Shown in pieces: positions 5,752 through 30,705 of a stretch of DNA of 64,000 nucleotides (its first letter is position 1; each line of letters opens with the position of its first letter). Source of the stretch: Eucommia ulmoides (Eukaryota; Streptophyta; Magnoliopsida; Garryales; Eucommiaceae); the NCBI GenBank assembly GCA_016647705.1, contig CM028328.1, positions 38,106,501-38,170,500 of the forward strand. Reading direction: 5' to 3'. The notes under the pieces were generated by a model. That model did no database searches. It was not told the origin of the DNA and saw only the letters and a program-made list of their open reading frames with translations. A program made the translations under genes and the position numbers.

Positions 5752-5819
5752 TGGTCATGATCCCAGATCTCAAGGTAACCATTTACGTAGTTGATGAAAT
5801 TTGCAAGAACAATTGTTTG

Positions 5820-6561: not shown

Positions 6562-6754
6562 CCAAAAGTTCTAAGCCCATCTTTTATTGTTATGTATTCC
6601 TTCCGGTTGGCCCATCTTTAATTTCAAGTGTGACTTTATGTGTGTAGTGTAATGGAGTTCTTTACACAATAAATATATTTATAAAAATTGAAAACATGTT
6701 TTTTCGAACTTATTTACGAAACACAAGTATCCCGGTATTCGAAAGACTGAAATC
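6562..6754. other. short spacer, nothing recognised
   Basis: AT-rich DNA between the gypsy LTR and the MULE inverted repeat; no ORF or repeat recognised. Confidence 0.5.
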
Positions 6755-7233
6755 TTAGCCCCGGTGTTCTGAACACCGAGATTAGTAATTATTATTTTTT
6801 TATTTTAATGATCCTGACATTGTGGACGCTCGGATCATTAATTATTATTTTTATTTGAATGATCCCGGCGTTGTGAACGTCGGGATCATTCAAATAATAA
6901 ACGGTGATACACCGTTTGGGTTGGTCAAATGGTACAACCGTTTGACCAACCCAGCTGTAAAGAATAGGCAGCCTTTGGTCCCAGTGTTGTCAACACCGAG
7001 ACCAAACCCCTATTTCACCCAGCATTGTGAATTACTTCTTCTTCCTCATTCATAATGCGCCTTCTTCTTACTTTTTCTTCATTCATAGTTCGAAGAGTTG
7101 CCTTCTTCCTAAGTGTTCATCCTTACTTTTTTCTCCCGATTTAACCTGAGTGTTCATCCTTTATTTGCCCGATTTCCTTCTTCAAAATTTGACAAATTTC
7201 ACAACTTCACAACTTCTTCCTCCTCCTACAAAG
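6755..7233 (+). repeat. left TIR of the MULE with leader exon
   Basis: Matches the reverse complement of 22876-23155. It holds a run of palindromes: 6762-6778 (CGGTGTTCTGAACACCG), 6853-6895 (20-bp arms, one mismatch), 6918-6952 (GGGTTGGTCAAA / TTTGACCAACCC) and 6977-7003. The inner part 7020-7233 is pyrimidine-rich like a 5' leader and ends CTACAAAG|GTAAATT, a good splice donor at 7234. By analogy with MuDR the TIR would carry the promoter. A TATA box is clear in the right TIR but here is decayed to CCCTATTTCACC. Confidence 0.75.
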
Positions 7234-7944
7234 GTAAATTTGTTTTAATTTTTTTTGGTTAATTTATTTTTTAGTTTGATTAGTATGTTTTTTACTTGTT
7301 ATTTGTTAGTTTGATTAATTTACTTGTTTTTTGGTTTGATTAATTTACTTGTTTTTGGATTACTTATTTTTAACACATTATAATATATTGTTTAAAAAAA
7401 TAGTTATTTAGTTAATTAATTAATTTAGTTGTTAATTTAGTTTTTTTTTAAAAAAAACATCAAAAAAATATTAGAGGTTAGTTTAATTTTAATTAGTATG
7501 TTTTTCATTTATTTAATTTGTTAATTAGTTTGTTGTTTTGTTAGTTAGTTAGTTTACTTGTTTAATTTGTCGGTTAGTTAGTTAATTTAATTTGTTGGTT
7601 TAGCTTTTTAATTAAAAAATATGCACTTTGCCCCCTCAAAGTTTGACAATTAGAAAAATATAAATTTTTAATATATTGTTTAAAATAAATTGTTACTTAG
7701 TTTAATTTTTGAATTTAGTTAAAATTGTTAATTAGTTAGTTTAATTTTTGAATTTAGTTATTTAATTAAAAAATATTTAATTAAAAATTGTGCACTTTGA
7801 CCCCTCAAAGTTTGACAAATTAGGAAAATATAAATTAAAATTGTTTTAAAATAAATTGTAAGTTAGTTTGAGTTTAATTTTTTTAATTTAGTTGTTTAAT
7901 TAAAAAAAAAAAACATGCACTTTGGCCCCTCAATGTTTGAGTTT

Positions 7945-8252
7945 AATGAAAAATATAAAATATTAAACTTATATAAAATAATATTTTCAAAATATAAATT
8001 TAATTTATCAATTATATGTAACAAGTTTAATTTGTTACAAATATGTAGTCGATGCAGGTTTTCAACTTCATCAATAATTGACTTTAACTTATCAAAATCA
8101 GGCTTTGAAATAACTTTAATGTTTGATGAAGTTGAAAAACTTGTATCGGCTACGTATTTATAACAAATTAAACTCGTTATATATACTTAACAAATTAAAT
8201 TTATATTTTGAAATTATTATTTTATATAAGTTTAATATTTTAGATTTTTCAT
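7945..8252. repeat. inverted repeat, about 130-bp arms
   Basis: 7945-8074 is repeated in inverse at 8122-8252 (share TATTAAACTTATATAAAATA, GTTTAATTTGTTA, TACGTAG/TATGTAG, TTTTTCAACTTCATCAA). The loop is about 48 nt. The left arm also resembles the true transposase 5' region at 8770-8880, so the hairpin is built from a duplicated piece of the element's own intron-exon junction. Confidence 0.8.
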
Positions 8253-8280
8253 TAATAATCGACTTTAACTTATCAAAATC

Positions 8281-8398
8281 GACTTTAACTTATCAAAATC
8301 AGGCTTTGAAATATCTTGTTTCTCATCTGCAACAATATATTGATTGTTGCAGATGAGAAAGAAGATATTTTGAAGCCTGATTCTGATAAGTTAAAGTC
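8281..8398. repeat. near-perfect hairpin, 56-bp stem, 6-nt loop
   Basis: Arm 8281-8336 pairs with 8343-8398 with four mismatches; the loop is ATATTG. The arms contain CTCATCTGCAACAAT / ATTGTTGCAGATGAG. The first 20 bases of the left arm are also tandemly repeated immediately before it. Confidence 0.92.
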
Positions 8399-10158
8399 AT
8401 TAAACAAGAAAATTAAACTCAAATTAATCAAAAAAATATGCACTTTGGCCCCTCAAAGTATGACAATGAGAGAAATATAAATTTTAATCTATTATTGTAA
8501 AATAAATTGCTAGTTAGTTTATTTTTTAATTTAGTTAAAATTGTTAATTAGTTAGTTTAATATTTTAATTTAGTTTTTTAATTAAAAAATATTTAATTAA
8601 AAATTGTGCACTTTGATACCTCAAAATTTTCCAAATTGAAAAAATATAAATTTTAATATATTGTTTTAAAATAAATTTTAAGTTAGTTTGAGTTTAATTT
8701 TTTAATTTAATTGTTTAATTAAAAAATATGTACTTTGGCCTCTCAAAATTTGACAAATTAGAAAAATATAAAATATTAAACTTATATAAAATAATATTTA
8801 AAAATATAAATTTAAATTGTCAAGTATATATAACGAGTTTAATTTGTTACAAATACGTACCCGATGCAGGTTTTCATCACCATTATTCACCAAATAGTCC
8901 ACCGCAAGATAACACAAGTAATTATGGTGGTGAGTTTGATACAATTAATAGTCATCACAGTGTGTTAGAAGAAGAGTTAGTTGTTGATGTTGCGTTTGAG
9001 CCAAACGAAGATCTAGATGCTGGACCTAGCGGGCAAGGGAGTCAGAATCATCAATTGGAGTTGGATAGGGTTATTCCATTTTTCAATAACTTGGACTAGG
9101 GTGACGCGATGACATGGCGAAATACTAGCCGAAGTTGCCAAAGAATTTCTGAACACCAGAGATGGACGAATTTTGTACTGGTATGGTCTTTAAGGACAAA
9201 GAACATGTCCAGCAGGCCATCAAACATTACCATGTCAAGAAGAACAAAGAGTATTATGTGTTGGAAACGAACAAGAAGATCTGGTCGGTTCATTATTTGC
9301 ATGGATGCGGTTGGAGGTTGCGAGTGAGTAGGAAAAAAAGTCACGGTATGTTTCAGATTACGCAGTATGAAGGAAAGCACATATGTTTCTATAATCATAC
9401 TATTATAGATCATAAAAATTTGGATTCTAAACTCATTTTGAACTTAATGCTTGGACAAGTCAAACAGGATCCAGAATTGAAGATTGACATCATTGTGGCT
9501 TACGTCAAGGAGTCTTAGAGATTCACCATCTCCTACTGAAAAGCTTGGTTGGCTAGATTTAAAGTCATCGAGACCTTGTTCGGAGATTGAGACGAATCAT
9601 ATCGAAAGTTGTCAAAGTTTATAGTCGCGTTGCAGCACTACAATTCAGGTACAATTGTCGAGTGGAGCATTGTGTCGACTGATATGCCTGGCTCCAGGAC
9701 ATTCAACATGATATTTTTAGTATTCAAAGCTTCAGTTAACAGATGGCGTTATTGTCACCCCGTCATCACAATTGACGGGACCCACTTGTATGGTAAATAC
9801 GAGGGGAAGATCTTAATCGCCATTGGAATGACGTCGTCCAACAAGTGTTATCCATTGACTTTTGCCGTCGTACCAACAGAGGACTACCACTACTAGTGTT
9901 CATCTACATGCTTAAACGCCTATTGTCGGTGATCGTCCTGAGGTGACAATGATATCTAACAGACACTCCGGCATTACTAGTATGGTTGACAGTATTTGGC
10001 TTAATCAACAGAACGAGCCCCTCTAATATCATCGATTTTGTTTGCAGCACCTTTGCTGCAATTTCAACAAGATTGCTAAAAATCAGCATCTCAAATATCT
10101 TGTTTGGAATGCGGGTGTTGTGACACAAATTCGAAAATATGATGCTATCATGGAAGAG

Positions 10159-10160
<2 letters not shown>

Positions 10161-10207
<47 letters not shown>
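10161..10207. repeat. (A)47 homopolymer inside transposase
   Basis: Forty-seven consecutive A at the point where the transposase reads MEEIKKK, apparently an expanded lysine codon run that now shifts the frame. Confidence 0.95.
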
Positions 10208-10209
<2 letters not shown>

Positions 10210-10530
10210 AATTGATGTTTGGGCACATACATGGTTGAACGATATTCCAGCTTACAAATGGACCAAGGCACATGACGATGGTAAGCGTTGGGGAGTAATG
10301 ACGACCAATTACGCAGAGGTATTTAACAATTGCTTGAAGGGTGCAAGAAATGTTCTAATTACTGCATTCGTGAAGATTACGTTCTACATAATGATTAAAT
10401 ATTTTGATATTGGTCGACAAGAAGCTCTAAAGGACTCAACCGATGGTTACCAAAACGTTAAACACGTCGTTCAAAAATTACAAAAATCTCAAGCCAAGTC
10501 TAAAATATACGAAATTCAAATATTCAATTG

Positions 10531-10617
10531 GTAAGTTGGTATTTATTATTTACTTTTTTTCACGTTACATAAAATTGTTGCGACACATATTTTAGTAAAA
10601 TATGATATTTTTTTTAG
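10531..10617 (+). other. transposase intron
   Basis: GTAAGTTGG at 10531 and a T-rich tract ending TTTTTTAG at 10617. Removing it joins IFN with CENVIYHVKTRK in one frame, restoring the alignment with MULE transposases. Confidence 0.75.
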
Positions 10618-12703
10618 TGAGAATGTGATCTACCATGTGAAAACTAGAAAGACTCCCATTGGGGGCTTAATTGCTCACGAAGTCACATTAGGGGATAACA
10701 CTGATTGCACATGTGGCAAGTATAAAATTTGACGATATCTGTGCTCCCATATACTTGCGGCCACCGAGTATAGTGGAGTTGATGCATTTCCCTATATTGC
10801 AGCTGAGTACACAATAATGAATCAATTGATGGTATGGGAGTTATCGTTTCGGCAGATTATTCACAAGGACTACTGGCCATAGACCAATTTTTTGAACCTA
10901 ATTCCGGACCATAACAGACTTCGAGTTGTGCATCGTGGTCGACCAAATTCCACTCACATTCAAAACGAGATGGATCAATCACGAAGAATAATGATAAATC
11001 GGTACAGTTTATGTTCCCAGACTGGACATGATAAGCGAAGGTGTCCATCCCGACCCCGTCATACACCCAATTGATTTTGTCAGTTCATTGTAATAAATGT
11101 TTAAGCTATTTTATTCGTTCGTTATGTCAGCTTTTATGTATTACAAATTACTTGCACTTGTTGTACTTATTCCTTTGTAATGAATGTTATAATTTGTTTA
11201 TAAATGTGATTAAATTTTAATTTCATACTAACAAAATTGGACACAAGTGTTGGAGGAAAAATTTTAGATATGTCAAACCCTGGGGTCGTAAATCCTTCAG
11301 TTCTACACCTGCAATTGGAGCATAGGTCCGCATTAGTCTGGACAACACAGGTAAATATTTAAGCTAATACATTAATTTTTTTATTTTATTTTTTAAAATT
11401 TTAATATTATTTATTGTGTCTTAATTAATGCTTCAGGATATTGGTGCTCTTGACTATTTTGGATTTGATGTAGGGAGATGGAGAAAAAATACCCTCCTTG
11501 AGTTATAGAGCTGATAGAATTGGTTGGTTTGTACAGCTCATACAGGTTATGGTTGAAGTGGTTAGATAGGGCCCTCATAACCGCGTTGGTAGAGAGATAG
11601 CGTCCGGAGACACACACTTTCCATCTACCCATTGGGGAGATAACCATCACACTACAGGACGTGACCGTCTTGTTGAGGTTACCCATGCATGGGCAACCGA
11701 TTATCGCCCCTGAGGACTTGCGACTGATAGACGCCTGGCAGGCACTTTGCTTTCATCTCCTTGAAGTGGCACTGCCAGTTAATAAGATTAGGAATGGTTG
11801 TTTGAAGCTCAAATGGTTATGGAAAACCTTTACCCAAGTTCATGAGGATGCCGACGAGGAGGCCATGCATTGCTACGCACGTGCGTATTGCTTGATTATA
11901 CTTGGCTAAATGTTGTTGCTTGATAAATCGCATAACAGCGTCAAGCTAGCCTACCCCCCACTGCTTGGTAACTTAACACCTACCGTCAAGTATAGCTAGA
12001 GCAGTGCGACACTAGCGGTCCGCTACCATGAGCTATGTAAGGCGTTGAAGGCTAAGACGAAAGACATAGTCAGCTGCCTATTTTTGTTAGAGTATTGGGC
12101 CTGGGAGCCGTTTCCTAGCCTTTGACCTGAAGGTATCCCTTTCCCCCATTATGATATATCATTTGGAGAATTGGACTTCGGTGAGGGCTTGACATTCTCA
12201 GCTGCTCCGAGGGGTGCCTAGTAAGTAATTAGTATTTTCTTTATAATTTTATTTATCATGCAGTGGATATTTATTTATGGATATTAAAATTATGGTATAT
12301 ATTTTTGGTGTATAGTTCGACCCTTGAGTTCAATTTGGAAAATTTGTTGATGCATGTTTTGGTGGACTATCGCGATCAGTTAGATCGGTTACAGAATAAT
12401 GAGATTAGTTATTTATTTACATTGAAATTTTAATTTTTTTATTTGTTTATTTATATTTTGTTTTACAGGTCATTTGAATGCCTTATTTCCTGTTGACTTT
12501 GCCATCATATACTAGAGATAGAGAAGATATGTGGATGGCAACGCTGCCCCTCATTTTCTACGAGGTCATCAAGTACACGTATCCCCTGCGCGTGCTACGA
12601 TAGTTTGGTTATCGGCAGGGGATTCCTCAGCCGGTAATTTTGGATAAGAACTTGCACCAAATTACTCGGCAAGGACACTTCAGTGCGAACTGGACTGAGA
12701 AGC

Positions 12704-14120
12704 TGATGAGTAGTTTATTTACCAACAAATCAAGTATTTTTAAGTTTAAATATTTGTGTGCTTTCATACATATTTGTTAGTTTAATATGTTTTTGTGTTG
12801 TTTTATACGTTTATAAATAAATTGGTGAAAATATGCAAAATTGGTTCAGGTGCAGTAAATTCAAAGCCATTTTTGACAATGATTCAATTCAATTTTGTAA
12901 AATCTAAAAACATGAAAGTTATATATCTATGTCTTAGATTTCCATAGGTTTTTTAATCACATTAGTCGGAGTTCAGAAGAGAACATTACGGCCAAAAGAA
13001 GAACCTAGTGTCAGCACTACCTTGAGCATCGCTGCAGCAATCTTTTCCATCGCTGCAGCGGTGATCCGGTAGTAAGTTTCTACCTTTCCATCGCTGAACC
13101 ATCGCTGCAGCGACCCGACACCAGCTGGCATTGATATTTTGAGATATTTTGCATTCTCACTCATTCCCACTCCAACCAAGAACGTTTTTGGGATATTTTT
13201 AAGAGCTCAAGATCAGAACCAAGAGGAGGAGAACACATTTGGAAAAGAGAGAACAAGATCGGAGTGGATTTTATAGTCGTAGAACCATCCATTCTTCAGA
13301 TAACGGCTATTCTCCCTTGTTTCTCTCTTTCATTCTAAGTTGTTATTGGTTGATTGATCATGTATATATTGTTTTTAGTTGAATATTTGGTTATGGCCAT
13401 GAGCTAAACATATATTATCTAGGGATTGATGTAGATCACGTATATGTTGTTTGATTAAATCGTTATTTTGTTATCGGTTGTTCATCCCTGTTCGATTGTG
13501 TTTACCATTTTTTTAGTTCCATTATATGTTTGTTATGGTATTTTGATTGATTTGAGAATACAGGGTTTGACACTCGAGAGAGGTAACTCCGGATTCGGAC
13601 TAGGGTTTAAACATAACGCGGTGTTCTAATGTTTCGAAGATTATTAGAAAGTGCACAATCCATAAGGTTGGGGCGAGACTCATGTAATCGTTTAGATGTT
13701 AGATAAAGATATCAGTGTTGACACGAATTGCATATTTATTCACTTTACACTAGGGAGAGGTAGTGAGTGAATTTTAGACACCTAGATTGTCGGATAAATT
13801 AATGACCCTTAATGTAAACTATACTAAATCAAACACGTTTAAGTGAACGAAGTGAATCCCAAGATAATTTATTCTCATAGACGTTATTCTTAGTATTGTA
13901 GTTTAATTAGTTAGTAGTTTAGTTTAGTTTAGTTTTATATTTCTATATAAAAAAAACAAAAATTGGAACGCCTAAATAAAGTTCGGTTACGATAATCGCA
14001 GTACTTAGCGATAATTTAATCCAATCCTTGTGGATACGATAATCATACTCATCACTATTCTATTAAAACTTGACCTCATGCACTTGCGAGTAATTCAAAG
14101 TGATTAAAATATCGCTAACA
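12704..14120 (+). repeat. 5' LTR of the TR-GAG element
   Basis: Starts TGATGAGTAGTTTATTTACC and ends ATATCGCTAACA, followed by the PBS. The 3' copy starts TGATAAGTGGTTTATTTACC. Positions 13020-13115 hold repeated palindromic ATCGCTGCAGCGA motifs, also present in the other copies. Non-coding. Confidence 0.85.
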
Positions 14121-14142
14121 AGTTTTTGGCGCCGTTGCTGGA
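14121..14142 (+). other. primer binding site of the TR-GAG element
   Basis: AGTTTTTGGCGCCGTTGCTG immediately after the LTR is the usual start of the internal region in Athila/Tat gypsy elements. Confidence 0.75.
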
Positions 14143-14263
14143 GATTGATTTTTATATTGTTGTTGATATTGTGAATAAGTAACTTGATTCTAATTTAGGT
14201 AATTATTTTATTTTTAATTTAAGTTTTAGTTTTAGTTTTATTTGTCTTGCGAGGTACTTGAAG

Positions 14264-15274
14264 ATGTCTCACCAACAAGTCTTCTTGAGTTTTTCTTAAC
14301 GGGATTCTGAGTCGTTCTATTGTGCTTGGGAACGATACAATAAGTTGCTATTTTGGTTCTCCAATCATAGTTTCCCGAGGGAGTGTCAACTACTGAACTT
14401 CCTAGATAGGTTACAAACCGCAACAAGAACTTGGATGGAAGGGGGAAATGGTACCACCTCATTCGACCAACTAACCACGGACGAAGCCTATTGGTTGTTG
14501 GAAGACATGGCAGAGTTTGATTGTCAAAGTTGAAATTATTCAACAAGCTACCAAAGCTTGGGGGATAGTTCCACTGTTTTGGCGCCATAGATTGACACCT
14601 CGGACCAACCTGTGGAGTCTTTCCCCACTCTGGAAGAGATGTTCACTAAATTTATGGGAGAGACTTAGGCTTTCTGGGGGGAAACGCATGACCGTCTCAA
14701 TGAGCATGAGAATCGTCTTAACAATATTGAGACGACCTGCACTAAAATTGATGTGACCGTAAAGTCCCTCGAGATGCAAATCGGTCAGCTTATTTACTTT
14801 ATTGAGGCCGAGTCAGAAGTGGTAGCACTGAGAGACGCACAAGCCACATCCATCCATGAAAGGCACTTTGAGGAACCAAATGCAAGTAGGAGGACTTTGG
14901 AAGTGCATTATGAAGATGATTCGAAAAAGTATGAGGCTCAAGAATTTTTCGTTGATGACAAATCAAAAGATGATTTTGGGTCCTCACCTCTTGAAATCCA
15001 ATTGGTGTTGCCACCACCGATCCAAGACGATCACATCTACGAGGATCCGATGTGGCTCACTTGTCTTTCACCACCTTTAACTCCGTTCATTCAAGATTCC
15101 CAAGCACATGAGCCGGAGAAGAATCAAGTTGAAAGCACGTGCCAATTAATGTCACATTTCGCCAAGCTTGAGGGCGTTGAGAATCAAGACCCGTATGTCG
15201 TGTTGTATGACACATACTATGGGCAGAAGTCGCTCTTTGACGAGCCCTTCTCGGTGTCAAGCCGAGGACATTAA
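14264..15274 (+). pseudogene. Athila-like gag
   Basis: ATG at 14264 (MSHQQVFLSF, then a stop). The frame continues ESFYCAWERYNKLLFWF, LLNFLDRLQTATRTWMEGG and EAYWLLEDMAEFDCQS. These match the retrotransposon-gag blocks of Athila-type elements (ES.YEAWERFK.LL..CP; TEEAYELLE.MA). After a frameshift, 14753-15274 is open (MTVKSLEMQIGQLIYFIEAE, then an acidic tail) and ends at a natural TAA. It makes up the whole coding capacity of the element. At least one stop and two frameshifts, so non-functional here. Confidence 0.8.
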
Positions 15275-16980
15275 ACCAAGCACTTCTTGGGAGGCAACCC
15301 AAGTTTTCAAAAAAATCAATTTATCACCGCCGACTACACTCGGAGGCGAGATTGTCTCGCCTCCCACGTACGTGTTCAAAATCCCCTTCATCTCCATGCT
15401 ATATACCATTTGTTGAATTCAATGTTAGGTCATTGTGGACACTGACCAGTCTAAGTTTGGGGAGATGTTGATGTTTTGTCTATTTTTATTGTTTAATGAC
15501 TTTTTGTTGGTTAAGTAGTTATGTTAAATAGTTGTTAAATGTTGTGTAGTTTAAGTTAAATTGTTATTTAGTTTCATGCATGTTTAGTTGTTAAATGTTG
15601 TGTTGTTTAATTTCATTCATGTTTGTTTAGTATTAGGTGTAAGGGTGTTTATGTTTGTAGTAGTTATTTTTGTGTGTTGAGCTTTGTAGTTCTTCTGAAC
15701 CATTACCCGATGATGATTATCCCCTAATTGTTTATCGAGGTCAAAGGATAATGCTCATTCATGTGTGTTATGTGTGCTTGACATTTCGCTTTGGTAAAAG
15801 TCATTGTGGATCCTAATTTGCACGAGCACGTAGACTTAATGTACTAGCTATCTAATTCATTTGACTCCAATTATCCAGTAGCCAAGTTCATGATAATTTA
15901 AGGGATTCTAGAACCTGATTGAGGGAAATTCGAGGTGAAATCCTAGGCGAGGTAGTTCAGGAGATATAATTTACGCATTCATTTTTATCGCTTGAGCCAT
16001 TGAAACTTTCTATGTAATATGTTTTACCCCTCGTTACCCTGTCGAAGCATGTTAGCCGTTTCAATTCTAAACACGTAACAAATACCCTAGCCAATTAAAT
16101 TTTTTCCAAACCATTGTCGTTAAACCTAAGGCACGATTTGAGTTGAAATCAAGTTAGCATTTGTTTATGCTACTTGAAGTGAGCATTTGGGTTTTGGACG
16201 AACTTTTGATTAGTTCGGTATTTGAGTGCTCCCTTATCATTTTTCTATCATATTTTCACACCCGTGAAATTGTACAAATTAAATAAGTTTGGGAGTGTGG
16301 TCGTTAAAAAAAAAACATATGTAAATATAGTTTTATTTTTGTTTGTTTTGACAAGTGAGTACTGCGTTTTGAAATGTTAGTTCGAGGTTGTTTCAAATTG
16401 ATCTTTGTAGGTACGAGTGTGATTGAGTTCCAAGCATGTGCCTTGGGTATCGTTGAGTTAATGACGTTTACCTGTTTTATATTCTTGATATACCCTTGGC
16501 CAGTTGATCAAAAAAATAAAAAATAAAAACGAACCAAGTCATTTTGATCTTTTTGAATTTCTAAACCTACATTAGTGGAGAGTGGAACCCAATCTAGCAT
16601 ATGGAAATCATATACCTTCTCGGTGTTAAGTCATGAACTTTGTTGGTGGATAATCCGATTCAGTCTTTAGATGGTTGTATATTAGAGTTTTCGCGCACAC
16701 ACTTGGAAATGATCTAGAATAGCGTTTACCGTTATTGAATGTTGAAATTCTAGAACACCACGTGGTGCAGTTTATTCTTGAATTCGATATGATTGGGGGC
16801 CGTTGAGAGAAAACTTTTTGGTCGATTAGTTTGAGTTCAAAACTCACACGTCGTTATTTTTAATTCGTTTGTGTTTTTTTTGTTTTTAGTATTTAAGTTC
16901 GTTAATTAGTTATGGTAGTTTATTTTAGTGTGTGAGTGTTTTTGCTTGAGGACAAGCAAACGTTTGAGTTTGGGGGTATT
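15275..16980 (+). other. non-coding internal region and polypurine tract of the TR-GAG element
   Basis: No ORF of interest. The right end has GCTTGAGGACAAGCAAACG, then GAGTTTGGGGGTATT at 16966-16980 directly before the 3' LTR, the usual polypurine tract of this group. A second AAGTTTGGGGAGATG occurs near 15452. Confidence 0.75.
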
Positions 16981-18133
16981 TGATAAGTGGTTTATTTACC
17001 ACAATCAAGTATTTTTATTTTCAAATATTTGTGTGTTTTTATGAATTTTTATTAGTTTAATATGTTTTTGTGTTATTTTATAGGTTTATAAATAAATTGG
17101 TGAAAATATGCAAAATTAGTTCAGGTTTAGTAACTTCAAAGCCATTTTTTATAATGATGCAATCCGGTTTTAGAAAATCTCAAAACATGAAAGTTGTATA
17201 TCTGTCTTAGATTTCCATAAGTTTTTGAATCATCAGAATCGGAGTTCGAACAAAAACATTACGAGCAAAATAGGAATCTGGTGTCGGCACTGCCTCGAGC
17301 ATCGCTGTAGCGATGGGAACCATCGTTGCAGCAATGATCCGACAGTAAGTTTCTATCTTCCCATCGCTGAACCATCGCTGCAGCGACCCGACACCACCTA
17401 GAATTAATATTTTGATATATTTTGCATTCCCACTCCAACCAATAACATTTTTGGGACATTTTTGAGAGCTCAAGATCAGAACCAAGAAGAGGCGAACACA
17501 TTTAGAGAATAGGAAACAAGATCGGAGCTGATTTTATGGACGTGGAACCATCTATTCTTTAGATAACGACTATTCTCTCTTATTTCTCTCTTTCATTCTA
17601 AGTTCTTATTAGTTAATTGATCGTGTATATATTGTTTTTAGTTGAATATTTGGTTATGGCCATGAGCTAAACATATATTATTTAGGGATTGATGTAGATC
17701 ACGTATATGTTGTTTGATTAAATCGTTGTTTCGTTATCAGTTGTTCATCTCCATTCGATTGTGTTTACCATCCTTTTACTTCCATTATATACTTGTTATG
17801 GTATTTTGGTTGATTTGAGAATACAGGGTTTAACACTCTGGAGAGGTAACCCCAGATTCAGACTAGAGTTTAAACACAACGCGGCATTCTAATTTTTCGG
17901 GAGATTATTAGAAAGTGTGCAATCCGTGTGGTTGGGGCGAGACTCATGTAATCGTTTAGACGCTAGATAGGAATATCGATGTCAACACGAATTGCATATT
18001 CATTCACTTTACACTCGGGAGAGGTAGTGAGTGAGTTTTAGACACCTAGATTGTCGGATAAATTAATGACCTTTAATATAAATTAGATTAAATCAAACAC
18101 GTTTAAATGAACGAAATCAATCCCTAGATAATT
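16981..18133 (+). repeat. 3' LTR of the TR-GAG element, truncated
   Basis: Collinear with 12704-13873 and stops abruptly at CTAGATAATTTAT (18133). The last about 250 bp of the LTR are missing. Confidence 0.85.
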
Positions 18134-18576
18134 TATGTTTAGCTCATGGCCATAACCAAATATTCAACTAAAAAAAATATATACATGAGCAATCAACCAA
18201 CAAGAACTTAGAATGAAAGAGAGAAACAAGGGAGAATAGCCGTTATCTGAAGAATGGATGGTTCCGCGTCCGTAAAATCCGCTCTGATCTTGTTCTCTCT
18301 TCTTCAAATATGTTCTCCTCCTCTTGGTTCTGATCTTGAGCTCCCAAAAATGTCTCAAAAACGTTCTTGGTTGGAGTGGGAATAAGCGGGAATGCAAAAT
18401 ATCTCAAAAATATTTCAAAATATCAATGCCAGCTGGTGTCGGGTCGCTACAGCGATGGGAAGGCAGAAACTTACTATCAGATCACCGTTGCAGCGATGCT
18501 CAAGGTAGTACCGACACGAGGTTCTTCTTTTGGCCGTAACTATCTCGGGCGAACTCCGATTGAGGTGTTTTGTAGG
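18134..18576 (-). repeat. inverted LTR fragment
   Basis: GTTTAGCTCATGGCCATAAC at 18134 is the reverse complement of LTR sequence at about 13385-13408. The block continues in inverse to GGCCGTAACTATCTCGGGCG, corresponding to about 12975. It differs more from either LTR than they do from each other near its right end, so it may come from a different family member. Confidence 0.82.
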
Positions 18577-19207
18577 ATCCGGAAGTATCACAGCTGATAC
18601 GCTTAAGTCAATTTTTCTCTGCGGATGCGTACTCTGGACTCATACGAAAATATGGCTTATGCCGTCTACGATGCCACCTCTGCGGCAGTGTACCATTGGG
18701 TACCGCACCACGTGCCAACTGACGTTTTTCCATCTCTTCAGGCTTCTCCTCAGCCATGGACTTATGACGCCTACCGTCCAAGTAGTATGGTGATGCCAAA
18801 CCTTCTACATCGTACAGCATGGGTGCTGATGCCGGACCATCTAATACATATGGCATGGGTAATGGTACTAGGTCGTCCGGCGTGTACCACATGCATGACC
18901 CTTATTTGCATTACGCATCGCAGCTAGGTACACGACCATCATCGTCATTCATCAATACGGCGATGGACGAAATTGTCTCAACTTCAAGAGTGATTCCTTC
19001 GATGGCATTTGTCCAACCCACAAGATTGGAGAGACAAGTGTCACCGATGCCATGATTCGGGGATGACGTGGATGCCACCCAGGGATGATGCAACAGTCAT
19101 TCATGAACTTTAGACAAGTTATACAGGTTCATGAGGAGGCTGAGGAACCTCCTATTGCTCAATGCGGAGGGCGGAGAAACGTTCGACATAAGGGTTGTTA
19201 TACATAA

Positions 19208-19780
19208 TTAGTTATATAGTCGATAGTTTAGTTATAGGAATATAAATACTTTTTTTTGTAAATACATTTTTTTGTAACATTTGTAACTTTAGAAAGTTGT
19301 TAATCTACCTTATATATTACTTCGCAAATGGATAAAGCATTTAAATGGGAAATCGAGCAACAAATTCTTAGACAGCATACAGATTGGCTTGTGGCTGAAT
19401 ATATATAACAATTTCTATCTAACAATTTTTTGTTCGATCTCCCATTTCAATGTTTTATCCAATTCAAAAGCAATATACACGGTAGATCAACAGCTTTCTA
19501 TGTAAATACATTTCGGTGTACGCTATTGTACAGGTTTGTTGTACTCCATCTTCGAGACTTGTATATGCATAGGTAAGATTTACCATCATCGTCGTCACTC
19601 TGGCATAAGAAATATGTATTAAGAGATTACATAATCACCACAAAACTCATAGCGAAGACAATACATAAGGAACATATTTAACGATGTTTGTTACAAAAAT
19701 GATAACAAAGACACTAAATAAGGAACATGTTTAACGATATTTGTTACAAAACTCATAACAATTGAACTGCCAAAAATTCT
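19208..19780. other. convergent intergenic region of the MULE
   Basis: Lies between the end of the plus-strand PMD gene and the end of the minus-strand passenger genes. It contains a large hairpin (19291-19500). A short tandem duplication (AACGATGTTTGTTACAAAA / AACGATATTTGTTACAAAA) lies near 19681 and 19734. Confidence 0.6.
19291..19500. repeat. hairpin with 82-bp arms between convergent genes
   Basis: Arm 19291-19372 pairs with 19419-19500 at roughly 80 percent identity (AGAAAGTTGTTAATCTACC / TAGAAAGCTGTTGATCTACC). The loop is about 46 nt. The plus strand encodes a tiny ORF at 19328-19408 (MDKAFKWEIEQQILRQH...). The inverted arm encodes the similar LDKTLKWEIEQKIVR before a stop, so the arms look like an inverted duplication of a coding fragment. 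Confidence 0.75.
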
Positions 19781-20290
19781 TTATTCTTCATTGGACATAT
19801 ACCCCTCAAACAAATATTCATTGTTATTTATCACGTTATGGTATTCGCTTGGAGAGAGTGCTATGTTGCTTGCGGCAGCCATTTCATTGGCTAGTTGAAG
19901 TAGATAATATCGATTCCCGCACAACAACATTCGATTATTCTCCAGGCGAATTTGTGTAATAGCATCTTCAATCTCAGTTGTGTCATCAATTATACATCAT
20001 CTAAACATCTGAAGACTTTGACGATGCAGAACTGGTGCATTAAGATCTCTCATAGAAGATACAAGGTGGTTAGACTTATTCACCCTGTATTTACATTCTT
20101 GGCGTAGACCGAAGCGATACTCTATCGGGTCGGTGTCTTGATCACCCCAATAGTCATCATAATATGGTTGTAGAACCCAACATCTTTGGTGATCCCATGA
20201 TCCAGGCCAACCCCAAACACCATATGAGTTCTCCTCACTTGAAAAACCAAATGAGCTTCCTTCACTTGGATTAATATGTGAAGACATCAC
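19781..20290 (-). pseudogene. unknown MULE passenger protein A, one internal stop
   Basis: Unknown family. Minus-strand ATG at 20290 gives MMSSHINPSEGSSFGFSSEE, then an aromatic-rich stretch YGVWGWPGSWDHQRCWVLQP, FGLRQECKYRVNKSNHLVSS, a single TGA after LQMF-R, then AITQIRLENNRMLL and an end FEGYMSNEE at TAA 19781. Read through the TGA (CGA in the likely ancestor) it is 169 codons, without signal peptide or membrane segment. It is similar to passenger B in three blocks (RCWVLQ/RYWLLE; KYRVNKS/TYCVNQS; ENNRM), so the two are an old tandem duplicate. It sits where MuDR carries mudrB, but I see no similarity to MURB from memory. Confidence 0.6.
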
Positions 20291-20553
20291 GAAAATTATA
20301 GGTTAAATAATTTATTTACAAATATTATACTGCACATTACGAGTTTACAAAAAAAATAGTTTTTTAAAACATAATTACTGAAAAATAATGTTTTAGAACT
20401 TATGTACACGAGGCTTAATTAAAAAAAGCTAACCCAACACCACTTATCAATTAAAAGCAAGAAAGTCAGTTATTTGGTAGAATTAGCATTATTATAATTT
20501 AACGTAAAAACGAAACATTAGACTTTAAAGGAAATACATAGTTAAACTACAAT
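20291..20553. other. spacer between the two passenger genes
   Basis: AT-rich, no ORF of note; may hold a promoter or be an intron if A and B are exons of one gene. Confidence 0.4.
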
Positions 20554-21006
20554 TCACCAAGGCGAAAAACAATAAACATTACTCTCATCATCAAACATTT
20601 CAATATCTGATTGATATTGAGGTTTTCTTGCACATCTCATGTAATTACACGTTTCGGCAACCAAATCTTCTTTGAGACGCTCACGTGCCGTCGTTTCAAG
20701 CTCATGTCAAAAGATTCGAATTTGCATTCGGTTATTTTCTTCGCGGTAGCGATGCAACGTCATCTGAAGATTATGCGGCGTGTCTATTGGCATTGTTCTG
20801 GCCAATTGACGCATTATTGGAATATTATATTGCTTGCATCCGTCCACCATAATCTTTGATTGGTTGACACAATAAGTATATTCCTCCCGCATCCTTGCAA
20901 CCCACCGTGAAGAGTAACGAACTCTTGAATCTAAAGAGTATGACAATTCGTCTTCCAAAAGCCAGTAACGTCCTATTGAACGATACAAATCTCTCACCGT
21001 GTACAT
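20554..21006 (-). pseudogene. unknown MULE passenger protein B, one internal stop
   Basis: Unknown family. ATG at 21006 gives MYTVRDLYRSIGRYWLLEDE, then YSSRWVARMREEYTYCVNQS, MVDGCKQYNIPIMRQLARTM and HRYREENNRMQIRIF, a TGA at 20707-20709, then HELETTARERLKEDLVAETC and an acidic end DDESNVYCFSPW at TGA 20554. Read through, it is 150 codons. The single TGA fits C-to-T decay of CGA. The central half is charged and probably helical. It is a diverged paralogue of passenger A. A TIR promoter, leader exon and acceptor (AAAAG near 21016) lie upstream, so it is likely the first gene driven from the right end. Confidence 0.62.
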
Positions 21007-21009
21007 TTT

Positions 21010-22875
21010 TCAATCCTTTTCATTTTATTTATTTTTAATTTAGTCAATAATTTAATTAACTTTGACTTTCAATAGAATATAAATTTTTTCAAACACATTA
21101 AAAAAGATAAACTAACTAACAACTATTATTATATTTTCTCACATGTGTAATTAATCAAATTTTGAGGAGGCAAAGTGCACACTTTTTAATTAAATATTTT
21201 TTAATTAAACAACTAAATTAAAATTTTAAACTAATTAACTAACTAACAATTTTTTTTAAAAATAATCTATTATAATTTCTATTTCAATTTATAATTTTAC
21301 AAGTTTTGAGAGGCCAAAGTGCACATTTTTAATTAAACAACTAAATTAACAAATTAAAATCAAATTAAGTAACTAACTAACTAATAATTTAAAAAATATA
21401 TATATATTATAATTTATATTTTAATTTATAATTTTTCACACATGTATAATTTACTCAAAATTTGAGGGGCCAAAAGTGCATAGTTTTCAATTAACAACCA
21501 AATTAACAAATTAAACTAACAAATTAACTAAAAAATTAAACAACTAAGGTAACAAATTAAATTAACCAACTAATTAACAATTTAAATAAGTAAACTAACT
21601 ATCTAAAAAACATATTAACCAAATAATTAAACAAGTAAAAAATATAGTAATCAAACTAACGAACAAATTAAAAAAAAAAAAAATTAAACTTACTTTTATT
21701 TTTATATTTTTTCACATGTGTAATTTATCAAATTTTGAGGGGTCAAAGTGTACATTTTTTAATTAAATATTTTTTAATTAAACAACTAAATTAAAAAATT
21801 TAACTAATTAACTAACAAACAATTTTTTTAAAACAATCTATTATAATTTCTATTTTAATTTATATTTTTTCACATGTGTAATTTGTCAAACTTTGAGGCG
21901 CCAAAGTGCACATTTTTTAATTAAACAACTAAATTAACAAATTAAAATCAAATTAAGTAACTAACTAACTAATAATTTTTAAAAAAATAATATATTATAA
22001 TTTATATTTTAATTTATAATTTTTCACACATGTATAATTTACTCAAAATTTGAGGGGCCAAAAGTGCATAGTTTTCAATTAACAACCAAATTAACAAATT
22101 AAACTAATAAATTAACTGAGAAATTAAAAAATTAAGGTAACAAATTAAATTAACCAACTAATTAACAATTTAAATAAGTAAACTAACTATCTAAAAAACA
22201 TATTAACCAAATAATTAAACAAGTAAAAAATATAGTAATCAAACTAACGAACAAATTAAACAAAAAAAATAAATTAAACTTACTTTTATTTTTATATTTT
22301 TCCACATGTGTAATTTATCAAATTTTGAGGGGCCAAAGTGCACATTTTTTAATTAAATATTTTTTAATTAAACAACTAAATTAAAAAAATTAACTAATTA
22401 ACTAACAAACAATTTTTTTAAAACAATCTATTATAATTTCTATTTCAATTTATATTTATATTTTTTCACAGGTGTAATTTGTCAAACTTTGAGGGGTCAA
22501 AGTGCATATTTTTTAATTAAACAACTAAATTAACAAATTAAACTCAAATTAAGTAACTACCTAATAATTTTTTTTAAAACAATATATTAAAATTTATATT
22601 TCAATTTATAATTTCTCACACATGTATAATTAATCAAACTTTGAGGGGCCAAAGTGCATAGTTTTTAATTAAACAACTAAATTAACAAATTAAACTAATA
22701 AACTAACTAAGAAATTAAACAACTAAACTAACAAATTAAATTAACCAACTAATTAACAAATTAAATAAATAAATAACTAAATAACAAACAGATTAACTAA
22801 ATAATTAAACAAGTAAAAAATATAGTAATCAAATTAACAAATAAATTAAACAAAAAATAAATAAATTAAACTTAC
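21010..22875 (-). repeat. repeat-filled leader intron, right arm, with about 580-bp higher-order repeats
   Basis: CAAACTTTGAGGGGCCAAAG followed by TGCACA recurs nine times (near 21169, 21301, 21456, 21734, 21889, 22048, 22322, 22484 and 22638). It is the inverse of the left-arm motif. Units are grouped in three larger blocks of about 580 bp (about 21130-21700, 21707-22290, 22291-22870); blocks one and two are nearly identical for long stretches. On the minus strand the zone begins with a donor AAAAGTAAGTTT at 22875, so it mirrors the left intron. Confidence 0.75.
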
Positions 22876-23155
22876 TTTTGTACTAGGAGGAAGAAGTTGT
22901 GAAATTTTTTATAAATAGACACTGACCAAACTGCTTTTGCTTTGCAAACTACACCGTTGCAGTCTGCAAAGCTGTTGGTCAAACAGTACATTATGTACCG
23001 TTTGACCAACACAAACGGCACATCACCGTTTTGCACAAACGGCACATCACCGTTTTGCACAAATGGTGATGTACCGTTGTAATTAAATGATCTCGGCGTT
23101 CACAACGTTGGGATCATTCAAATAAAAAAAAATTACTAATCCCGGTGTTCGTTAA
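22876..23155 (-). repeat. right TIR of the MULE with promoter and leader exon
   Basis: Inverse of the left TIR. On the minus strand: CGAACACCGGGATTAGTAAT, palindrome 23087-23119, three GGTGATGTGCCGTTTGTGCA-type tandem units (23014-23080), a palindrome 22975-23009 (TTGGTCAAACAGTACAT / ATGTACCGTTTGACCAA), then GTCTATTTATAAAAAATTTC, a TATA box at 22907-22920, the leader CACAACTTCTTCCTCCTAG and a splice donor. The order matches the left end. Confidence 0.75.
22907..22920 (-). promoter_or_regulatory. TATA box in the right TIR
   Basis: TCTATTTATAAAAAA on the minus strand, about 32-45 bp upstream of the leader exon's splice donor and inside the TIR, oriented toward the passenger genes. Confidence 0.5.
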
Positions 23156-23490
23156 ACTCAAACTTTGAGGGGGTCAAAATACATATTTTTTAATTAAACA
23201 ACTAAATTAAAAAATTAAACTCAAACTAACTTACAATTTATTGTAAAACCATTTTAATTTATATTTTCCTAATTTGTCAAACTTTGAAGGGTGAAAGTGC
23301 ACAATTTTTAATTAAATATTTTTTAATTACATAACTAAATCCAAAAATTAAACTAACTAATTAACAATTTTAACTAAATTCAAAAATTAAACTAACTAAC
23401 AATTTATTTTAAACAATATATTAAAAATTATATTTTTCTAATTGTCAAACTTTAAGGGGCCAAAGTGCATATTTTTAATTAAACAAAAGA
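23156..23490. repeat. additional MULE subterminal repeats outside the right TIR
   Basis: Three more units of the TTTGAGGGGNCAAA-type repeat (near 23156, 23278, 23447), same orientation as the right arm, directly abutting the TIR. Either a remnant of a second, related element or a rearranged end. Confidence 0.65.
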
Positions 23491-23560
23491 CTTGATTGGG
23501 TTAGTTTCAGGGTTGCTGACTAATCATTGCAAATGAATCTCAATTACGTATTAAACAAAA

Positions 23561-24341
23561 GGGAAAAGTACATTATAAACCCTCTAGATATTGGCATTTT
23601 TCTAAATAGTTTTTCTTCATTTAAGCGTTTCATTTTAAACTCTCTAGATATCAACTCATTTTTATTCGGTCCTTCCGTCAAAAAATCTGTCAAATATAAC
23701 AAAATAGAGAAACAAATCTATCTTTCTACATATTTTTAATTTTTAAATAATTTTTATTTTATTTTTTTTATTTTCTTTTTTTGATCTCCCGCTCATTTCT
23801 CTCTCTCTTCCTCCTTCCTTCTTCCTTCCTCCCTCCCTCCTTCCTTCCCTCTATTCTCTTTCTATTCCTCCTTCCCTCCTCCTCTCTCTCCCTCCCTCTC
23901 CCCGCCGGCAGGAACAGGCAAGGGGTGCCACCCCCTGTTACGGGGATGTTTCACCCCCCATAACAGAGGGTGAAACACCCCCTGTTGCCACCCCCCATAA
24001 CATAGGATGGTTCACCCCTTGTTACGGGGGTGGTTCCGGCCGGCGGGGAGAGGGAGGGAGGAAGAGGGAAAGAGAGGAAGAGAGACTGTTGAGCGGGAGA
24101 GAGAGAGAGAGAGAGGGGTCAAAGAAAGAAAAAAAATATTAAAAAATGATTAAAAAATTGAAAAAAAAAATGTAAAATGACGATTTTGCTCTCAAAATTC
24201 TGTTAGTTTGGACAATTTTTTTTATAGAATGACCAAATAAAAACGTTCTGATACATAGAGGATTTAAAATGAAACGCTCAAATAGAGAGAGGTCATTTAA
24301 AAATTCGTCAATACCTGGAGAGTTTAAAATATACTTTTCCC
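23561..24341. mobile_element. non-autonomous MULE (about 780 bp) with long TIRs
   Basis: Starts GGGAAAAGTACATTATAAAC and ends in the inverse GAGTTTAAAATATACTTTTCCC. Similarity between the ends continues for about 150 bp (TAAACTCTC.AG.TATT, GCGTTTCATTTTAAA, TTTATT.GGTC). Flanks TAAACAAAA (23552-23560) and TAAATAAAA (24342-24350) are a 9-bp target duplication with one mismatch, the Mutator hallmark. The centre is CT-rich, then a GC-rich palindromic block (CCCCTGTTACGGGG, CCGGCCGGCGGGG), then GA-rich. No coding capacity. Confidence 0.82.
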
Positions 24342-24350
24342 TAAATAAAA

Positions 24351-25347: not shown

Positions 25348-27637
25348 CTACAAGTTGGCCTTGCAAGTAGACTTATTGTGCCCTGCCACCTTGCACTTGC
25401 TGCAAACGACCGTCCTCTTAGCTGATCCACCTGTCTCTGCCTCTTCCTCCTCATCTTCACCCTGAGATTCAAGTGGGGTAGGTGGAAGAACATGCTCAAC
25501 AATCTCCAAATCCGCCGCACCATCGTTTTCAAAAAGTTTTCCAATGTCCACAACAGGGTTTATCGACTCGGCATATGTAGTTTGGAAGCTACTCACCGTG
25601 AAGTATTTTGAACAGTAATCGTAAACACTCCTACCGGTGCAATTCAGGACCGCAATAGCGTGGCGGCAGGGAAGCCCAGTTTCCTTCCACCCGAGGCATG
25701 TACATTCCCAGTCATTAATATTCACGACATGGATTAAATCATCATGAACCTCAAATAAGGTATCAGATGAAAATAAAACCTTCAGCCACTGTGCCTTGAG
25801 GCTTTCTTCTTCTATGTGCCGCTCTTTAGATGGAGTGAGTTTTGAGGACCAATTGCCAGAATCAGCACGACGATTGTTGAACAAGTCAGTCATCATGGAT
25901 CTGAGAGCTTCAATCTTATGCAAGATGGGGGCTTCCCGCATTTCCTTCATCAATTTGGCATATGGCTCCGCAACATCTTCAATGATATGGTTATAGCGCT
26001 CGCCCTTGAATGCAGCATTTGTCCAACACTCGGGCTCAATTTGCGCCACGAAATCATAAGCCAGCGAAGAAGACTGTTTAAGTTTCTCGGTGAACTTGTT
26101 AAAATTAGAAAGCCGGGTTGCATGTGCTGCAGCCATAAGATTTCCACGTAGAGTACCTCTCCAATCTTCATAAAATACGCTCTTCAAGTTTTTCTTGAAA
26201 CTTTCCAATAGATGATACATGGAGTAACCATGGTGAGCATTGCTAAATACCTCAGCCACTGCTTTGTGTAAACCCTTCTCTCCATCTGAGACAAAAGTTA
26301 CGGATTGTGAAGTTGAAATTGCGGATCTCAACTCCTCTAGAAACCATTGCCAATTGCTTTCATTCTCAACATCGACTATGGCATATGCAACTGGAAAGAA
26401 GGAATCATCTCCATCCATTGTAGTGGCCGTCAACAAAATTTCCCGGTTCTTCGATTTTAGAGATGTCGCTTCAAGGAAAAGGAGGGGACGACAACCATTT
26501 AGGTAACCATGTATTGCAGCATGAAAAGAAACAAAAAGGCGTCGAAATATTTTATCAGTATCAGTGACAAGCTTTGCCAAACTACCAGGATTTGTCTCCA
26601 AAACCTTGTCACAAAAATGAGGCAGTAGATTGTATGCCTTTTCATAAGAAGATGGGCTGTAAAGATTATCCACTTTTGGTACGATATCTTGAATCTGTTC
26701 GACATCGTCATCTGCTGCAACAGTTCTCCTTCGGGTATATTTTCTTGATTTTCTACTCCCAGTGTTACCAGTGGTTGAACTGTTAATGGACACTTTCCAG
26801 GAAGACTTTCTCCGCCTCTTAACAGTACTTGCAGGGGTACCAATCAATTCAGTTGCATTTGGGCTGTCACTTAGTGCAACAGGGACAGAGTAACGTGGAG
26901 CATAATCTGAATCATCATCAGTATCATGGTCAGAAGGAGTTGAGGCAGAAGTGTCTCTACTGGGGCTCTCCACAGTTACATCAACAGCCATTACAGATTC
27001 AAGCTCTGCTTTGGTCGCTGACGAGACCAAACAATCCACAGTTCCAGCACGTCTTCTCTTTTTTCTGCCTAATATTTCCGTCGGTTTTACACCAGATACC
27101 CTGCAAGTGATACCCATGATGACAAGTAAACACGTTAAAGCAGATGAAATGCAAACCACGAACCATAAAGCAAGATGGTTGTTGCAATCACTTTAACAAG
27201 AATATGTGCGCTCCTGTAAGTGATTGAGAGATCATTAACTTGACAAAAAGATGATAGTCCAAAAATAAAACAGGAATTGCAAAGAAATACCTGCCACCAT
27301 GCATCTTCAAGGCATCACGATCAAAACCTTCTTTTCCCATAACAAAAGCTTCTGCTGTCACTGAATTCCCATGAAAATCAACCATCCTTTTTAGGTCTTT
27401 GTCATTCTTTACAAGGATGAGATTCTTCTTGTTCCCTGGAAGAAAATACTTGATGGAAACTGTTCCATACTCCAAGTTACACAATTCAGCTAACTCTAAC
27501 TTCAAATCATCAAATTGTGTCTCATTATTGACATTTATTGCATTTGCCTCTCCTCCATTATATGACATGGTCCCATCCTCATTTTTCACAAACTCACCAC
27601 CATACTGGCAAACTAATATCAGCTTCCCTCTTGCCAT
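25348..27637 (-). CDS. MUG: MUSTANG-type protein (PB1 + domesticated MULE transposase)
   Basis: Host gene, two coding exons: 27291-27637 and 25348-27100. The intron has GTATTT donor and CACTTGCAG acceptor; joining gives 2100 nt, 699 residues, no stop. Residues 1-90 form a PB1 domain (MARGKLILVCQYGGEF, basic Lys; acidic end KNDKDLKRMVDF); PB1 domains mediate protein-protein binding. Residues 130-260 are basic/Ser-rich with likely nuclear signals (GRKKRRR, VKRRRK). The MULE core starts about 300: LFLEATSLKSKNRE has Glu at 326 where active transposases have Asp (DGTHLK); SDGEKGLHKA keeps an Asp at about 388. A SWIM finger follows (C582, C584, C594, H596) and a C-terminal CCHC-like knuckle (C682, C685, H690, C695). 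The combination fits the PB1-containing MUSTANG clade, domesticated genes kept across flowering plants and linked to growth and flowering. No TIRs flank it. Confident in family, not in biochemical role. Confidence 0.93.
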
Positions 27638-30224: not shown

Positions 30225-30705
30225 CAAGTTAATCAAAGAACTTTTAAGTCCATTTACGTTAGTTCATTCCGATGCTTAGGGTCCTCATGTGTCTCTTCGA
30301 GCTTAGGATTTCTTTATTTTGCCACCTTTGAGGATGGTTTTTCAAGAGTCACTTGAATTTATTTAATGAAAGATCGTTATGAATTATTTTCTATATTTCG
30401 CTCCATTTATGCTAAAATCCACTCCATTTAGTGTGCCCGTTCCAATATTCTCTCACCCATTTACCTCTTTCATTACACTCGGGTGTTGTTAACCAGTCAT
30501 CTAGTACTCACGCCACAACAAAATGGTGCTACTAAGAGTAAGAATCGCCCCCTACTTGAGGTTGCCCCGCATTTTGTTGTTTGAATGATGGTTCCCAAAC
30601 GCTTTTTAAGTGATGCGGTTCTTACTACTTGTTACTTAATTAATCGAATACCTTCCTCCACCCTGAATGGCAAAGTTCCACATTCTGTTCCTTTCCCTAG
30701 TTCTC
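30225..30705 (+). pseudogene. copia integrase
   Basis: Shifted frames give LVHSDA-GPHVSLRA, FLYFATFEDGFSRVT, IYLMKDRYELFSIFRSIYAK, LTPQQNGATKSKNRPLLEVA and AVLTTCYLINRIPSSTLNGK, ending HSVPFPSSHG. These are consecutive blocks of copia integrase (HSDVWGP...; D.SR.TW.Y.M...E; TPQQNG..ERKNR.LL; A..T..YLINR.PS..L). The third catalytic acid (E of the QNG-x-x-ERK region) appears as K/S here. Interrupted directly after this by the hAT element. Confidence 0.8.

Follow-up and report, generated by a model that had tools for sequence, protein, structure and literature searches.

Several Mutator-like elements (MULEs) share features with the one described here. MuDR of maize carries two genes, the second opposite to the first, and its terminal inverted repeats (TIRs) are the promoters of both (PMC8224964). 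Plant MULEs of the MUDR, MUDRAVI2 and MULE-Solanaceae_1 groups share a SWIM transposase, 9-bp target duplications and a PMD in sense or antisense orientation (Table 1 of Dupeyron 2019, PMC6446971), and in MULE-Solanaceae_1 an unknown open reading frame (ORF) accompanies an antisense PMD (PMC6446971). It has been proposed that MULEs captured PMD for anti-silencing (PMC5418596). Abermu, reported in 2022, has a transposase, a second ORF on the same strand and a third on the opposite strand, with types that lack ORFs and with variable ORF places (PMC9168764). In VANDAL21 and Hiun, tandem arrays of an oriented motif lie ahead of the transposase gene and within accessory-gene introns (PMC5735166, PMC13317346); the VANC21 motifs keep one orientation as tandem repeats upstream of VANA and in the introns of VANB and VANC (PMC5735166). 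The foldback-like MULE Tm1 combines composite, repeat-containing TIRs of variable length with a MULE domain and a 9-bp duplication (PMC3169594). Here we analyzed a 64,000-nucleotide stretch of the Eucommia ulmoides genome (C4:38106501-38170500, hereafter the window) and sought its relatives in the same 947-Mb genome. Positions ~6654-23150 of the window hold a decayed member of a MULE family that is present in high copy number and is built of two arms that converge. This copy keeps the older gene order, with a transposase gene and then a PMD gene in the left arm, and two small passenger genes, passA and then passB, in the right arm.

A first-pass annotation had proposed a MULE with convergent arms, a transposase and a PMD gene on one strand and duplicated passenger genes on the other, and this proposal is borne out by the domain matches and by the gene order of the relatives. 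On the plus strand of the window, Pfam matches were found to DBD_Tnp_Mut (9153-9515, E = 3.4e-7), MULE (9591-9893, E = 3.9e-5, 24.4 bits, under the curated cut-off of 27.6) and PMD (11601-11906, E = 3.9e-17). The MULE superfamily is recognized by a MULE domain, a MuDR-type DNA-binding domain and SWIM, and all three are present in the transposase of one relative, C (MULE 3.4e-17, DBD_Tnp_Mut 1.3e-7, SWIM 4.3e-7). Pfam gave no match, up to E = 1, for the two minus-strand frames of the window, 20000-20302 (passB) and 20710-21009 (passA); no solved-structure relatives were found (best E 0.23 for passA and 0.44 for passB), and no relatives of passB were found in bacterial or archaeal genome contigs. 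The two genes are paralogous, with an alignment score of 118 in relative C, against a mean of 31.7 (SD 5.2, maximum 54) in 500 shuffles.

It is evident that the window copy is not alone. The first 29 bases of passA occur at 377 places with up to two mismatches (0 for the control); 150 matches were scored out of 1858 candidates for the transposase exon, and 150 out of 1296 for passA. Nine places were fetched: A (C8:5.25 Mb), B (C2:2.60), C (C8:6.03), D (C3:36.75), E (C16:46.07), F (C5:37.18), G (C2:18.53), H (C77) and I (C9:21.55). E, F and I have the window order without LTR (long terminal repeat) material, namely transposase and PMD on the plus strand and passB and passA on the minus strand. 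The same order is found in G, a member of a diverged subfamily, when it is read in reverse, with residues 1-579 of the transposase matched; the paired small genes occur in both diverged subfamilies. In C, transposase, passA and passB are on the plus strand and PMD is on the minus strand. The transposase, PMD and passenger frames of C are open, whereas F and I carry stops (seven in the transposase frame of F, three each in the PMD exons of F and I, one each in their passA, and two in passB of F).

Other relatives lack parts of the set. B resembles C but is without the stretch holding the second transposase exon and both passengers, and D resembles G but has no transposase match. A has the transposase alone, and its presumed right end follows near 7028. 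In H, transposase and PMD share a strand, a presumed right end lies at 5779, ~1 kb past PMD, and passenger genes were not matched within 12 kb. A was considered as the type of a transposase-only subfamily and D as proof of a transposase-free one; both were rejected, because PMD is present in H, which is 95.6% alike to A, and the transposase in G, which is 96.2% alike to D over 5.8 kb. The first-pass annotation had assumed a fixed gene set, which does not hold in A, B, D and H nor at 72 places with an inverted gene block (see below). It had also named genes scattered over different elements as evidence that would count against its proposal; the missing parts in these four copies come close to that, and the full set stands together in E, F, I and G. 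Target duplications of 9-10 bp, within the 8-11 bp typical of MULEs, flank B (found by script) and D and E (found by eye), in line with the 9-bp duplications that had been expected; none was found flanking the window copy when exact 8- to 12-mers were sought.

C and E are 93-95% alike along their shared pieces, with the PMD-passB-passA block inverted between them. In C, the 3′ end of the transposase is present in two inverted copies (210 columns, 92% identity), one at the transposase and one before PMD, and the copy before PMD continues into the PMD 5′ sequence as in E. Because this duplicated end stands beside PMD in C, PMD stood behind the transposase before the inversion, and the order of C was rejected as the older one. 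The window order thus came first, and G, from the second subfamily, backs it. The inverted junction was found at 72 places (43 exact and 29 with one mismatch) and the non-inverted junction at 58 exact places, with 0 for the controls of both; the non-inverted pattern is 24 bases long, only its exact places were used out of 192 with up to one mismatch, and some of the 58 may not be passA junctions. Junctions were then paired with the 150 listed transposases within 13 kb. The inverted junctions gave at least 50 same-strand pairs and 0 opposite pairs among those listed, and the non-inverted ones gave 0 same-strand and at least 8 opposite pairs, one of which is the window. These counts are lower bounds, the remaining junctions having no listed transposase within 13 kb. 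Pairing through the passA lists gave at least 47 same-strand pairs, 1.5-3.5 kb apart, and 5 opposite pairs, 3-16 kb apart, besides 2 other same-strand pairs at distances of 11.7 and 14.4 kb. The inverted form is probably the younger one, because the frames read in C are all open and those of F and I are interrupted by stops, a comparison of few copies.

The two orders could also be explained by a reversible switch, in which the block flips by recombination between inverted repeats and changes the pairing of promoters and genes. Such a switch would fit both the occurrence of the two orders in copies as alike as C and E and the 210-base inverted repeat that flanks the block in C. However, a single junction, with one mismatch at most, is common to all 72 inverted places, no such inverted repeat is reported for E in the stretch examined, and a single event followed by amplification fits better; we consider the switch highly improbable.

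We then estimated the ratio of nonsynonymous to synonymous substitution rates (dN/dS) with the NG86 method, pair by pair and not on a tree, leaving stop codons out of the alignments and using 100 bootstraps where bootstraps are given. For the transposase, dN/dS is 0.21 (C-A), 0.29 (F-A) and 0.30 (C-F). For passA it is 0.27 (C-D), 0.30 (C-G), 0.36 (F-D) and 0.40 (I-D); for passB, 0.15 (C-D), 0.16 (C-G), 0.21 (F-D) and 0.20 (I-D); and for the PMD exon, 0.24 (C-D), 0.24 (C-G) and 0.27 (F-D). No bootstrap reached 1 in any of these comparisons. The small genes thus look constrained between the subfamilies of C and of D and G, at dN/dS of 0.15-0.30. The synonymous divergence (dS) between C and D is 0.90 for PMD and 0.22 and 0.33 for passA and passB, respectively; this difference suggests that modules have been exchanged between subfamilies.

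These values bear on whether passA and passB could be passive cargo, captured as in Pack-MULEs and without function for the element. That both lack a Pfam or solved-structure relative, that the subfamily of H has no passengers and that dN/dS is high in some close comparisons (given below) would be expected of cargo. On the other side, none of the 100 bootstraps reached 1 between C and D or G, the frames are open in C, D and G, and the pair is present in both diverged subfamilies. Pack-MULEs are non-autonomous and carry captured host fragments without selection, a description that does not suit the open frames of C or the low dN/dS between subfamilies. Passive cargo is therefore unlikely in our view.

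The palindrome-rich inverted ends noticed in the first-pass annotation are present in the window by alignment, with a partial TIR and a damaged right end. The TIRs of B align with each other over 3.3 kb at 87% identity and those of E over 2.4 kb at 91%, and TIRs are also found in D. When searched with up to three mismatches, each TIR of B and E was found to hold a TATA-like site and, 126-127 bases further on, a splice donor, in nearly the same sequence at both ends. A leader with a donor had been described in each TIR of the window and a TATA box in the right one; they are seen by eye at ~7200-7240 (+) and ~22875 (-), with the TATA at ~22908, and B and E have the leader and donor in both TIRs. 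A presumed splice acceptor before PMD (GGGAAAAAATTTCAG and the like) is present in C, E, F and the window copy, and a putative one before passB is seen in C.

Between the donors and the genes lie arrays of an oriented motif, CTTTG(N2-3)CC(C/T)TCAAA, chosen after the repeats were seen and scanned with up to one mismatch. In the window there are 6 forward occurrences in the left part of the element and 12 reverse occurrences in the right part (3 of the 12 in an extra copy at the right end), but the motif is found 0 times in the 46,600 bases outside the element and 0 times in 20 shuffles, which keep base composition only. The counts in the relatives are 31 in A, 7+14 in B, 5+11 in C, 6+9 in E, 3+5 in F, 6+5 in I and 0+1 each in D and G; the fetched part of H, which stops short of the left array, has 0. 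D and G have a different array with a motif of their own, found 11 times in each on one strand. Long composite TIRs with internal tandem repeats, the mark of foldback-like elements, are thus present, whereas the absent or short, degenerate TIRs of VANDALs are at odds with TIRs of 2.4 kb in E and 3.3 kb in B. A 187-base repeat array also lies between passB and PMD in D (L045 6715-7939), with matches in A to two inverted stretches that lie outside the transposase.

To explain the observed anatomy, the two orders, the junction census, the likeness of the TIRs and the constraint between subfamilies, we propose a two-armed MULE family with TIR-driven transcription, accessory proteins under selection and an invertible block, a reading to which we give, as a whole, a probability of roughly 0.65. 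Each TIR would start transcription, and splicing would remove the array intron and join the leader to the genes of that arm. The transposase would move the element by cut and paste, and passA and passB would be accessory proteins kept by selection. The gene block could be turned around and still be expressed because the two ends would be equivalent as promoters, and the inverted form could thereby amplify.

Several observations weigh against this proposal. A clear TATA was not seen in the left TIR of the window, nor a clear splice acceptor at passA, and C and D differ in their upstream sequences. Because H has no passengers, either some lineages can do without them or H relies on other elements. 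Furthermore, some dN/dS values are higher: for passA, 0.80 in C-F (1 or more in 38 of 100 bootstraps) and 1.96 in C-I (91 of 97); for C-F, 0.40 in passB (4 of 100) and 0.42 in PMD (1 of 100); and, without bootstraps, 0.78 (C-E) and 0.85 (C-window) for passA, 0.50 for passB and 0.57 for PMD (both C-window). The higher values are from comparisons with close or decayed copies.

Less certain is a further step of the same proposal, in which the PMD protein or the transposase would recognize the arrays and counter host silencing, by analogy with VANC21. passA and passB hardly change from C to D while the arrays do, and PMD changes; PMD or the transposase is therefore the better candidate for an array reader. 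The tail of PMD has three YGMG repeats in C and seven YGM(G/S) repeats in D, as counted by eye in the translations. The number of 36-base repeats in this tail (L043 7364-7449; L045 8827-9096) also differs between C and D. A, with arrays and no PMD, favors the transposase or action in trans. It could be argued that passA or passB itself is a VANC-like, array-binding anti-silencing factor, given oriented motif arrays as in VANDAL21. However, the two proteins are 87-89% alike between C and D though the arrays are not the same (the C motif occurs once in D, which has 11 copies of a different one), and A has 31 motifs and neither gene, so that this role for passA or passB seems quite improbable. 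A bolder version of the two-armed proposal is a promoter-symmetric transposon, in which each TIR would be a promoter, first exon, donor and array intron, the gene blocks would be interchangeable cassettes (invertible, losable and swappable between subfamilies), and an array-reading PMD would co-evolve with the arrays as a VANC-like anti-silencer of separate origin; taken jointly, these suppositions are rather doubtful.

The layout is known in kind from published MULEs, and the claim of the first-pass annotation that no such element had been described was too strong for the layout, in view of Abermu and of MULEs with sense or antisense PMD. It is possible, though not the explanation we favor, that the family is an ordinary MuDR-type MULE with PMD, the extras being family-level detail already catalogued in Repbase or in subscription papers, as PMD and unknown ORFs are tabulated for plant MULEs (PMC6446971) and Abermu has a similar three-ORF layout (PMC9168764). 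Nevertheless, the TIRs analyzed for those plant MULEs are 14-500 bp (PMC6446971), compared with 2.4-3.3 kb here, and paired paralogous small genes and block inversion were not met in the published descriptions compared. By its description, MuDR is set apart by TIRs of ~200 bp, a single second gene (mudrB) and no reported PMD (PMC8224964), and the description of the PMD-bearing plant MULEs, with their shorter TIRs, does not mention paired small genes or two block orders (PMC6446971). Abermu, also compared by description, has TIRs of 138-145 bp and ORFs of unknown function, with no PMD mentioned, and its gene order varies between species, whereas the order in this family varies within one genome (PMC9168764). 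VANDALs have no TIRs or short, degenerate ones (PMC6446971); the repeats in the PMD tail recall the variable tandem peptide repeats of an element protein in VANDAL21 and Hiun (PMC5735166, PMC13317346). Tm1 is a nematode element with a repeat motif of ~14 bp, and neither PMD nor a gene pair is mentioned for it (PMC3169594). In the literature searched, Repbase being outside its scope, we found neither the pair of paralogous genes nor block inversion, nor TIRs of kilobase length that combine a promoter, an exon and an array.

The window copy itself can be followed from end to end. Its left terminus at ~6654, placed by alignment to the ends of A, B and D, lies ~100 bases outside the start at 6755 given in the first-pass annotation. 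The left end (6654-7233, +) comprises the terminus, the palindrome-rich TIR, a presumed promoter and a presumed leader that stops at a splice donor (~7233/7234, placed by eye); B and E have this module in each of their TIRs. It is followed by the left array intron (7234-8874, +), in which the motif scan places six motifs (7626, 7795, 7920, 8443, 8611 and 8733). The transposase remnant (8875-11078, +), with DBD_Tnp_Mut and MULE domains by Pfam, is broken into four pieces and begins at residue 218 of the intact protein, the first 217 residues being missing. An inverted self-match inside the left array (7943-8255, ~315 bases at 85%) lies where the transposase start is missing. The first part of the PMD gene (11252-12735, +) follows a presumed splice acceptor at 11252-11267, and the last part is at 18565-19204 (+); the gene is interrupted by nested LTR material (12704-18570), with LTR-like copies at 12704-13872 and 16981-18136 (86.5% identity) and an inverted piece at 18086-18570. 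A 201-aa frame inside this material is without a convincing Pfam match. The LTR material makes up ~5.9 kb of the window element, and B and E span ~12.4 and ~12.6 kb, respectively, so the "giant" size first given to the element is reduced.

Where the arms meet there is an inverted repeat (19290-19507; arms 19290-19381 and 19415-19507). The hairpin on which the arms had been said to converge does exist in the window, but it is weak as a conserved structure. A 591-base interval around it folds at -134.6, against a mean of -98.9 for 50 mononucleotide shuffles, and the interval is no different from shuffles in C (-58.4 against -62.4) and E (-69.4 against -66.9). Both arms match the same stretch of D, in which the hairpin arms are 1.6 kb apart. 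On the minus strand follow the passB remnant (19791-20302) and the passA remnant (20575-21009, the limit 20575 being estimated from the 435-base length in relatives). The passA frame is closed early at 20707-20709 and encodes 100 aa, compared with 145-157 aa in most listed relatives. The right array intron (21092-22879, -) has nine motifs (21175 to 22654), and the right TIR (22875-23150, -) keeps its TATA, leader and donor. Its outer end is lost and replaced by an inverted copy of the left array (23151-23483, -) with three more motifs; ~23150-23483 is 92.8% identical to 7607-7950.

A palindrome-like stretch (23560-24342, a 65% inverted self-match over ~860 columns) adjoins the damaged right end. 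About 2 kb past the element, a long open frame at 25348-27661 (-) matches MULE, SWIM and Transposase_mut in Pfam and is preceded by a frame with a PB1 domain; we take it to resemble the domesticated MUSTANG transposase genes. A hAT-like frame at 30701-31402 (+) has weak DUF659 and BED-finger matches under the curated cut-offs. Elsewhere in the genome, at least eight short matches to the left TIR palindromes cluster within ~120 kb (C8:79517696-79639657).

What had looked like a single-copy curiosity belongs to a family whose many copies lie in one genome, and some of these copies are open in all frames read. The role of accessory genes in MULEs, an old question since mudrB, is approachable in this family because natural copies that have or lack each gene, and that show either gene order, can be compared. 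The family, whose MULEs bear PMD and have long TIRs, may also provide a second case of oriented arrays that evolve together with a protein of the element, and its relatives in two orders show how such elements can rearrange themselves.

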